Below the pieces are notes generated by a model. The model was given only the letters and a program-made list of their open reading frames with translations, had not been told where the DNA came from and did no database searches. A stretch of DNA of 35,828 nucleotides from Nocardioidaceae bacterium (GTDB lineage: Bacteria > Actinomycetota > Actinomycetes > Propionibacteriales > Nocardioidaceae), in contig JAICKK010000014.1 of NCBI GenBank assembly GCA_025927955.1, forward strand, positions 1-35,828, written 5' to 3'. This document shows, in pieces, positions 5,761 through 8,030 of the stretch (position 1 is its first letter; every line of letters starts with the position of its first letter). The translations under genes were made by a program, and so were the position numbers.

Positions 5761-6834
5761 ATGGAGCCTCGACCGACGATCTACGACGTGGCGAGGCTCG
5801 CCGGGGTGGCCGCCTCCACGGTGTCGCGGGCGTTCGCGCGACCGGGACGGGTGAACGCCGAGACGGCGGCACGAGTGTTCGCCGCGGCCCGTGAGCTCGG
5901 CTACCGAACGGCCTCGCTCCCCGGGCTGACGACGTCCCGCACGCGCACTCTCGCGCTGGTCGTCACCGACATCACCAACCCGTTCTACGCCGAGATCATC
6001 CGGGGGGTGCACGAGGCCGCCGCCGACCTCGGCTACACCGTGCTGCTGTCCCACACCATGGAGGACGCGCACGTCGAGCGGGCCTGGATCGAGCACGAGC
6101 TGCCGACCGTGGAGGGGATCGTGCTGGCCAGCTCACGCATGTCGGACAGTGCGATCCGCACGCTCGCCAAGCAGAAGCCGGTGGTGGTGCTCAACCGCCG
6201 GCTCCCGGAGGTGCCGAGCATCCTCATCGACAACCAGCGAGGCATGCGCCGGGCCATGGAGCACCTCGGGGAGCTCGGGCACACCTCGGTGACGTACGTC
6301 AGCGGCCCGGAGGCGAGCTGGACCGACGGCGTCCGCTGGCAGTCCCTGCGCGAGGCCGGCTACGAGCTCGAGATGAAGGTCCAGCGTGTCGGGCCGACCA
6401 ACAGCCCGACGATCGACGCCGGCTTCAGGCGGGCCGGGCAGGTGATGGCCCACCCGACGACGGCCGTAGTCGCCTACAACGACGTCCTCGCCATCGGGGT
6501 CATCAAGGGGCTGGGCCGGAGGGGGGTCGACGTCCCGAACGACGTCAGCGTCGTCGGCGTGGACAACATCCTGCTGGCAAAGGTCGTCGAGCCTGAGCTG
6601 ACCACGGTGGCCTCACCGCTGCGCTCGCAGGGGGAGACGGCGGTGCGCAACCTGGTCGCGATGGTCAACGGAGCGGTCCCCACGGGGGAGCCGCTGCTGC
6701 TGCCGGTGAAGCTGGTCGTGCGCCGCTCGACGGCTCAGCGCAGCCGGAAGAGGACCTCGCCGGCATTGGGCACCACGAAGGTCTCCTCGTCGGCCTCGGC
6801 CGCCGCGAGGTCGATCGACTCGACGTCGACGTAG
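5761..6834 (+). CDS. LacI/GalR-family transcriptional regulator of the glucuronide regulon
   Basis: This 357-residue protein has an N-terminal LacI helix-turn-helix and hinge helix ([19 protein letters not shown], residues 7-25, to about 60). A periplasmic-binding-protein-like effector domain follows ([19 protein letters not shown] through VSVVGVDN). It sits between uidA and the LarA/uxaC/uxuB genes, so an effector such as glucuronate, fructuronate, mannonate or gluconate is likely; which one cannot be told. It probably binds the repeated sites at 5725, 8075 and 10963. The usual family ending (LVVRRSTA) is followed by about 32 Ser/Thr/Arg-rich residues. Those are encoded opposite the 3' end of the convergent LarA-like gene and are probably a non-functional tail. 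The regulator gene may be leaderless. Confidence 0.92.
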
Positions 6835-8030
6835 CCGAGGTTGGCCCGGCGACACTGCTCCTCGGGGATCCCGGTGGCCAGGGTGACCTTGACGCGCAGC
6901 CGCTCCTCGCCGGTCTCGGCGTCGTAGGTGCCGGCACCGCGCAGGTGGGTGGAGTGGGCGAGCGTGCCCCAGTGGACGTGCTCGAACCGGTCCCACTGCT
7001 TCACGAAGTAGTCGCGACAGTGGTAGCCGATTTCGAGGATCTCCGGGTGGCTGATGGAGACCTGGGTGATGTGCGGCGCGTAGAGGATCACCTCCCCGCC
7101 GTCCGCGACGACCGGCTCGAGCTTGTAGAACCCCTTCGCCCCGGTCCAGATGTCGTCGTACATCTGCGGTACGACGGAGATGACCCGCGACACCGGGGCG
7201 TCGAGGTAGTGCACGTGGGTGGCGGCGCACACCTCCGCGGCGCTGGACCAGGAGGCCACCGTGTCGCCGAACGAGATGGAGTGCAGGCCCAGGCTGCCGG
7301 CCTCGGCGACGACGCAGAAGGCGAGCTTCTCCGCCGGCACCAGGGAGGCACCCTCGTTGATGAGGGCACGGACCGGCGTGACCGACGTCGTGCCGATGAT
7401 CTCCGCGGACGTGATGAGTGCGCCGATCCAGTGCGAGACGTCGATGATGTCCTGGCCGGCGACGCCGGGGAAGAAGTACTTGTTCCCGCCGGAGATCCCG
7501 ACCACCTCGTGCGGCAGCACCGGACCGACCACCAGCGCGATGTCGTGCTCGACGACCGCCCTGTTGAGCATCACCGGCACCTCCATGGTGAGCCGGCCCT
7601 CGGACAGCTCCGCGAGGCGCGACGCCGGGATGGTGCCGAGGTCGGCGAAGGTCTCCGGGTCCCACCACTCGTGGTTGGTCACCCGCATGCCGGGGTAGGT
7701 CTCCTCGAGGTGCCCGACCTCGTAGCCGAGGTGCCGGGCCAGGGCCGCCTCGCTCATCGGCTGGTGCGTGCCCAGGGCGATGAGCGTGGTCATGGCCGAG
7801 ACCCTGCCGTGCAGCGCGGAGTGCACGGCGCGGACCAACATCGGCAGCGGGCAGGTGCGGGTGCCGTCGGGGACGATGATGCACACGCTCTTGCCGTCGA
7901 CGTCGGCCGCGGCCAGCTGCTCGGCGATGAAGCCCGTGACCTGCTCCGTGGAGAGCACGGTGTGCGGGTCGCCGATGCGGGCCGCTCGCCTGGCAGCGTC
8001 GGCCGGCGCCTCCTCGGTGGTGGTGGTCAT
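6735..8030 (-). CDS. LarA-type nickel-pincer hydroxyacid racemase/epimerase (candidate aldonate 2-epimerase)
   Basis: This 431-residue protein belongs to the LarA/DUF2088 superfamily. Key residues of L. plantarum LarA have counterparts here: His89 in GTHQP; His174 in PHEVVGISGGNK; Lys184, the residue that carries the nickel-pincer nucleotide; and His200, a nickel ligand, in IIDVSHW. The last three keep LarA numbering exactly. DGTRT near residue 58 and GAKG near 299 match the anion-binding and catalytic regions. The family inverts C2 of 2-hydroxyacids, and known members include lactate and malate racemases and gluconate 2-epimerase. The uronate gene context points to D-mannonate/D-gluconate as substrate. 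No larB/C/E cofactor genes lie in the window. The ATG at 8030 has GGGGAG about 11 nt upstream; a GTG at 8039 is an alternative. The 3' end overlaps the convergent LacI gene by 100 bp. Confidence 0.88.
   Translation of the reverse strand: MTTTTEEAPADAARRAARIGDPHTVLSTEQVTGFIAEQLAAADVDGKSVCIIVPDGTRTCPLPMLVRAVHSALHGRVSAMTTLIALGTHQPMSEAALARHLGYEVGHLEETYPGMRVTNHEWWDPETFADLGTIPASRLAELSEGRLTMEVPVMLNRAVVEHDIALVVGPVLPHEVVGISGGNKYFFPGVAGQDIIDVSHWIGALITSAEIIGTTSVTPVRALINEGASLVPAEKLAFCVVAEAGSLGLHSISFGDTVASWSSAAEVCAATHVHYLDAPVSRVISVVPQMYDDIWTGAKGFYKLEPVVADGGEVILYAPHITQVSISHPEILEIGYHCRDYFVKQWDRFEHVHWGTLAHSTHLRGAGTYDAETGEERLRVKVTLATGIPEEQCRRANLGYVDVESIDLAAAEADEETFVVPNAGEVLFRLR

Follow-up and report, generated by a model that had tools for sequence, protein, structure and literature searches.

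We analysed a stretch of 35,828 nucleotides from a Nocardioidaceae bacterium (assembly GCA_025927955.1, contig JAICKK010000014.1, positions 1 to 35,828; hereafter the window), in which a larA-family gene on the reverse strand (6735–8030) lies among genes for glucuronide use. Judging from sequence and a structural model, its 431-aa product is very probably a D-mannonate/D-gluconate 2-epimerase of the GntE kind, dependent on the nickel-pincer nucleotide (NPN), that would connect gluconate metabolism with the upper part of the glucuronate pathway. A mannonate-to-gluconate bypass had been proposed in the first-pass annotation of this DNA, and the proposal was supported by the closeness of the protein to Thermotoga maritima GntE2, its distance from lactate and malate racemases, and the recurrence, across several phyla, of related genes linked to those for UxaC, gluconokinase and phosphogluconate dehydrogenase. 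Well supported as it is, the idea is not new: in 2012 Rodionova et al. put forward such a route in hexuronate use for Thermotoga, drawing on comparative genomics (as cited in PMC6978723 and PMC3750489), and GntE1 (group 19, from Corynebacterium glutamicum) and GntE2 (group 20, from T. maritima) were assayed in 2020 and found to epimerize D-mannonate and D-gluconate (PMC7583248), with an oomycete GntE added by PMC11770544. The kind of enzyme and the route are already known, and what is added here is the breadth and tightness of the link to glucuronate genes.

The larA frame is complete, with an ATG start codon and no internal stop codon, and its product was assigned from the Lar_N domain, an alignment, profile comparisons and a predicted fold. 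Pfam Lar_N matched with 78 bits (cut-off 23.3). In a 28-row alignment of the protein and 27 homologues 41–86% identical to it, D55, R58, H89, H174, K184, H200 and K299 were invariant and corresponded to D72, R75, H108, H174, K184, H200 and K298 of LarA (PMC7583248), as expected of a member of the LarA superfamily; the His174, Lys184 and His200 listed in the first-pass annotation proved exact in the protein's own numbering. The catalytic H174 is directly followed by E175-V176, and this pair is invariant in the same rows, as are W295 and A358, which our reading of the alignment equates with the α11 W and the α14 A/V. An 'EV/S' loop together with these two positions is the signature described for the hexonate-epimerase groups 18–20 (PMC7583248), and the protein carries all three. 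A single-histidine LarA homologue, in which Asn replaces the second catalytic His (PMC12611868), was also considered and rejected given the invariant H174.

The closest solved protein was 4NAR, identified as T. maritima GntE2 (PMC7583248), with 223 bits from the single sequence, and a family profile gave 321 bits for 4NAR against 75 for lactate racemase, the next best, and 64 for Mar2. An AlphaFold2 model with a mean predicted local distance difference test score (pLDDT) of 92.6 aligned to 4NAR with template-modelling (TM) scores of 0.86 and 0.89 and 32% identity in the structural alignment, compared with TM scores of around 0.7 for lactate racemases and 0.55 for Mar2. It is very hard to credit on these data that the gene encodes an ordinary racemase of lactate, malate or another small hydroxyacid that stands in the cluster by chance. 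Such enzymes belong to the same superfamily and genomic context is not always predictive (PMC7583248), but the protein scored only 68 bits against a cut-off of 460 for the lactate racemase LarA (NF033504) and 88 and 70 bits against cut-offs of 500 and 462 for the malate racemases NF052593 and NF052595, its loop reads E-V rather than F-F or Y-K, its gene linkage recurs in several phyla, and the genome holds a separate true LarA. The named lactate and malate racemase assignments were rejected accordingly.

The genes around larA outline the start of the route. A GH2-family β-glucuronidase gene, uidA (3865–5652, reverse strand), matched NCBIfam PRK10150.1 with 890 bits (cut-off 544) along with the Pfam GH2 domains; the glucuronate isomerase gene uxaC (8129–9532, forward strand, the start codon being our choice) matched PRK02925.1 with 546 bits (cut-off 387); and a GPH-family symporter gene (11005–12528, forward strand), encoding a probable glucuronide or glucuronate importer, matched TIGR00792 with 403 bits (cut-off 231) and came slightly under the cut-off of the glucuronide transporter model PRK09848 (498 bits, cut-off 528). 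These three neighbours bear out the first-pass annotation. The fourth, a reductase of the mannitol dehydrogenase family with Pfam Mannitol_dh and its C-terminal domain (9529–10938, forward strand), fell short of the NCBIfam models for both DalD (261 of the required 600 bits) and fructuronate reductase (234 of 603); since it passes no named cut-off, we call it a probable fructuronate reductase of the UxuB type from family and context. A LacI-family gene (5761–6834, forward strand; Pfam LacI and Peripla_BP), the probable regulator of the cluster, reached no cut-off in any of the 18 named NCBIfam families listed. The description of larA as embedded in a glucuronide operon did not hold: larA is divergent from uxaC, uxuB and the symporter gene, with 98 bp between the larA and uxaC start codons as chosen, and convergent with lacI, so that it does not lie within one operon with the rest. 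The 3' ends of lacI and larA overlap on opposite strands by 100 bases (6735–6834), a region that extends beyond the end of most LacI-family matches.

In the proposed route, glucuronides would be imported through the GPH symporter and UidA would release D-glucuronate, which UxaC would convert to D-fructuronate and the UxuB-type reductase to D-mannonate. The LarA/GntE protein would then invert C2, with net flux predicted in the direction of D-gluconate, and a gluconokinase encoded elsewhere in the genome would form 6-phosphogluconate, from which a phosphogluconate dehydrogenase, presumed to be encoded in this genome, would yield ribulose 5-phosphate and repay the reducing equivalent spent by UxuB. 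By homology, K184 would hold NPN, H200 would ligate the nickel and D55 and R58 would bind the cofactor, while H89 and H174 would alternate as base and acid as NPN takes the C2 hydride and hands it back to one or the other face of a 2-keto intermediate. In this glucuronide regulon, mannonate dehydratase thus appears to be replaced by the epimerase.

The same gene company was found well beyond this genome. We compared 96 related loci with LarA identities of 41–89%, 56 from a scan of genome contigs and 40 chosen by us from 93 LarA-carrying genomes of the order, with flanks of up to ~10 kb on each side that were shorter at contig ends. UxaC was found in 65 loci, a LacI-type regulator in 60, UxuB in 40, phosphogluconate dehydrogenase (Gnd) in 34 and a short-chain dehydrogenase/reductase (SDR) in 33, the LacI and SDR counts following loose criteria for large families. 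The NPN genes were present in 27 loci (larE in 26, larB in 24 and larC in 22) and a gluconokinase in 31 (small type in 18, FGGY type in 13), along with UidA in 13, GPH in 11 and KDPG (2-keto-3-deoxy-6-phosphogluconate) aldolase in only two. The representative FGGY protein had gluconokinase as its best match, yet its 348 bits fell short of the cut-off (649), and no single function is assigned to the SDR representative. UxaC, UxuB, Gnd or gluconokinase, and NPN genes were combined in 13 loci, a count that covered 78 of the 96 loci and left out 18 cyanobacterial ones with a UxaC–SDR–LarA–GntK set, in which neither UxuB nor Gnd, an FGGY kinase or any lar gene besides larA was present. Knoellia aerolata (L089), a Humibacillus (L092) and a Streptomyces (L100) each carry, within a single stretch of DNA, the full set of UidA, GPH, UxaC, UxuB, LarA, gluconokinase, Gnd, LarB, LarC and LarE. 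UxaC, SDR, LarA and small gluconokinase occurred together in 18 of the 20 cyanobacterial loci, and the other two, L133 (cut near a contig end) and L143, showed LarA alone. LarA was also found with phosphogluconate dehydrogenase in metagenome-assembled genomes labelled Deltaproteobacteria (L128), KSB1 (L131), TA06 (L137), Anaerolineae (L121) and Planctomycetota (L136 and L139). In the Nostoc-type cyanobacteria (L110–L120, L122–L125, L130, L140 and L141), an SDR takes the place of the UxuB of many Actinobacteria.

These loci also bear on the substrate. An NPN epimerase with the same cluster logic could act on another sugar acid, such as an aldarate (glucarate/mannarate) or an altronate-type hexonate, with mannonate as a side substrate. 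PMC7583248 leaves the native substrate of C. glutamicum GntE1 open and suggests another substrate of this sort for it, given its uronic-acid gene context and its Michaelis constant (KM) for D-mannonate of 120 mM, and by our reading of the alignment the present protein has V176 and A298 where GntE2 has S156 and G286. We consider this alternative unlikely: the recurring hexuronate isomerase, reductase, gluconokinase and phosphogluconate dehydrogenase imply D-gluconate as product (aldarate genes were not systematically sought), and uidA, which the window shares with 13 of the 96 loci, points to glucuronate.

Three copies of an operator-like sequence link the putative mannonate/gluconate epimerase gene to its neighbours. 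The pattern GGCAAY-N4-GGCAAY, derived by comparing intergenic stretches, occurs in the window as GGCAAC-N4-GGCAAT between uidA and lacI (5725–5740, reverse strand) and as GGCAAC-N4-GGCAAC between larA and uxaC (8075–8090, forward strand) and ahead of the GPH symporter gene (10963–10978, forward strand). There were exactly three matches in the window against 0.01 expected in shuffles, with the pattern itself taken from these sites, and four exact matches in the whole assembly against one for a reversed control pattern. The 96 related loci contained 35 pattern sites, 14 of which (in 14 loci) were ~250 bp or less upstream of the estimated larA start. A matrix trained on the sites of loci L048–L143 only, which had been located by the pattern from the window, scored the three window sites at 29.7–31.6 and the next window position at 7.9. 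The second half of several relatives' sites reads GGCAAC-N2-GTTGCC, an inverted repeat of the LacI type, and a longer alignment suggests a fuller operator, GGCAAC-N4-GGCAAC-N2-GTTGCC. Since the fourth exact copy in the assembly (C227) is without the extra half-site, we take it to be a chance match. With the operator matrix nothing above 10.5 was found around a second larA gene and the KDPG aldolase gene (C38), and screening the intergenic regions of the window for simple palindromes gave no match. We infer that the adjacent LacI protein binds the operator-like sites, through which it would probably control larA, uxaC–uxuB, uidA/lacI and the symporter gene jointly.

The bypass would draw on larB, larC, larE and a gluconokinase from elsewhere in the genome, as the first-pass annotation had anticipated, and all were found in the assembly (3.79 Mb, 284 contigs, 86.9% complete). 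LarB (C68), LarC (C179) and LarE (C134) are encoded, so that NPN can probably be made by this genome, and a GntK-type gluconokinase is encoded on C250 (187 bits, cut-off 114). The larB gene and the start of larC end contig C68 (L010, 2–1279), larC opens C179 (L013) and larE lies at the edge of C134 (L015); an adjacency of larB and larC, and perhaps of larE too, would thus be masked by assembly breaks. It had also been observed that the cluster lacks a mannonate dehydratase and a KDPG aldolase, and this agrees with the wider search: no match to UxuA (PF03786), co-regulated or otherwise, was found in the assembly by a search that was positive in five control genomes, including Escherichia coli and T. 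maritima, and that did not extend to an enolase-type mannonate dehydratase, edd, kdgK or gnd, a scope that tempers the case for a bypass. The one KDPG aldolase (eda, 197 bits, cut-off 156) is encoded on C38, not on the contig of the cluster, and adjoins a xylulokinase-type kinase and an aldo-keto reductase.

The occurrence of LarA was compared with that of UxuA across 293 genomes of the order; the LarA, UxuA and UxaC searches were treated as covering one sample since genome number and handles agree. LarA was found in 93 genomes, UxaC in 119 and UxuA over the cut-off in 42, and UxaC accompanied LarA in 92 of the 93 carriers, the exception (G080) being a partial match. UxuA over the cut-off was found in 19 of the 92 genomes with LarA and UxaC against 19 of the 27 with UxaC and no LarA (Fisher p = 3e-6, relatedness ignored), and 'canonical' UxuA of more than 400 bits in 4 of the 92 against 15 of the 27 (p = 1e-8, with relatedness likewise ignored). 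Both the LarA cut-off (E-value 1e-60) and the 400-bit limit were chosen by us, the latter after the scores had been seen; G092, with a split UxuA match, was classed as non-canonical, and four sub-cut-off UxuA matches (G121, G172, G198 and G245) were excluded. In the mixed genera g3, g14, g16, g22 and g26, none of the UxaC carriers with LarA has UxuA over the cut-off. Eight UxaC carriers (G043, G089, G101, G160, G166, G176, G221 and G231) have neither LarA (E-value up to 1e-60) nor UxuA over the cut-off.

A further alternative, compatible with the enzyme assignment itself, is that the main route still runs through a mannonate dehydratase, either an unassembled UxuA or an enolase-superfamily enzyme, to 2-keto-3-deoxygluconate (KDG) and the KDPG aldolase on C38, while LarA only balances the mannonate and gluconate pools. 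The aldolase is indeed present, the assembly is only 87% complete, and T. maritima holds both branches under one regulator (PMC3750489). Nevertheless, we give this arrangement a low probability, in view of the lack of UxuA in the assembly, the lack of an operator copy on C38, the kinase and reductase neighbours of the aldolase gene, and the 73 of the 92 genomes with LarA and UxaC in which no UxuA match over the cut-off was found.

Several other observations weigh against the favoured reading, a GntE-type epimerase acting in glucuronate use. The NCBIfam group-18 model NPN_18_hexonate gave 161 bits and its cut-off of 500 was not reached; because the protein lies far under the lactate racemase, malate racemase and also the group-18 cut-offs, we place it, from its sequence and modelled fold, in the GntE branch with no group number. 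The second LarA, on C66, scores 537 bits with the lactate racemase model (cut-off 460), and such a true lactate racemase could alone account for larB, larC and larE, the presence of which is no proof of a role here. No operator score above 10.5 was found in the stretches around the gluconokinase, larB, larC and larE genes, some of which end at contig edges. In the order, 19 of the 92 genomes with UxaC and LarA also hold a UxuA-family match over the cut-off (four above 400 bits), LarA and UxuA coexisting in three of four g28 carriers and one of eight g18 carriers, and weaker UxuA-family matches alongside LarA in g8 (4), g9 (4), g10 (1) and g12 (6). When LarA was shuffled within genera, the avoidance of UxuA was weak (p ~0.02–0.03), so that much of it lies between lineages. 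Among the 96 loci, eight (L071, L074, L077, L086, L095, L107, L133 and L143) have none of the sought partners in their flanks, and several more have an SDR, by the loose criterion, as sole partner. The control genome of C. glutamicum does not fit a simple picture either, with matches to UxaC, LarB, LarC and LarE but to neither UxuA nor Pfam Lar_N.

Among known systems, GntE2 (LarAH20, 4NAR) is the best match in sequence, profile and fold, with the same catalytic and NPN residues, and its hexuronate gene context in T. maritima likewise includes gluconokinase and gnd (PMC3750489). The two differ in sequence (32% identity), with E-V here for E-S, A298 for G286 and G355 for N348 by our reading, and in setting: the T. 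maritima locus serves pectin and galacturonate, with uxuA also under the GntR-family regulator UxaR (PMC3750489), whereas the present cluster combines glucuronide genes with a LacI-type regulator, and no UxuA was found. For GntE2 a kcat/KM on mannonate of 11 per s per mM is given (PMC7583248). GntE1 (LarAH19, C. glutamicum) shares the uronic-acid gene context and epimerizes D-mannonate and D-gluconate in vitro (PMC7583248). The hybrid galacturonate/phosphoketolase route of Lactobacillus suebicus also connects the fructuronate reductase step with the 6-phosphogluconate branch, and its proteome table has UxuA, KdgK and KdgA as not detected; unlike here, mannonate is phosphorylated first and the 6-phosphomannonate is then epimerized by an enzyme not named in that account (PMC6978723). 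The canonical UxuA–KdgK–KdgA glucuronate pathway has the UxaC and fructuronate reductase steps in common with the proposed route, which uses an epimerase and gluconokinase in place of mannonate dehydratase. Our searches of the open-licence PubMed Central literature, subscription papers being outside its coverage, turned up no account of the UidA-linked actinobacterial version, of the cyanobacterial version, of the operator or of the loss of UxuA.

Four proteins from Pedococcus/Knoellia (L088, L089, L090 and L126) share 86–89% identity with the LarA protein, against at most 69% for the LarA proteins found in its own order, and both LarA and UxaC are missing from the two genus-mates compared for them, G109 and G193, for which reasons the cluster was probably acquired horizontally. 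A misbinned contig was considered and rejected, as 30999–35828 matches the genus-mates G109, G193, G324 and G329 over long stretches with 77–85% identity. In the part of the window compared (16000–35828), the genus-mate matches start at a tRNA-Leu(gag) gene and run rightward, and the gene content to its left looks variable; an att-like repeat of the tRNA-Leu end was sought in the window and none was found. A TetR regulator gene (12607–13221, Pfam) adjoins a long run of frames resembling acyl-CoA catabolism (13288–26601), named by eye as acyl-CoA dehydrogenases, a carboxyltransferase, a biotin carboxylase, AMP ligases, and MaoC-like and CitE-like proteins.

Taken over all loci, the data make it reasonably likely that GntE replaces mannonate dehydratase in many Actinobacteria and heterocystous cyanobacteria, in a nickel-dependent glucuronide/glucuronate catabolism that ends in the pentose-phosphate pathway and moves as a cassette able to bring its own larB, larC and larE, and that this answers which reaction the GntE-like enzymes of Actinobacteria catalyse natively. 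If so, D-mannonate would be the natural substrate in a part of the superfamily for which PMC7583248 left the native reaction open, and a genome with uxaC and no uxuA but with a GntE-like LarA should not be annotated as having a broken pathway. The predicted products would shift from pyruvate and glyceraldehyde phosphate to ribulose 5-phosphate and CO2, and both the use of glucuronides by many Actinobacteria and that of glucuronate by Nostoc-type cyanobacteria would need nickel together with LarB, LarC and LarE.

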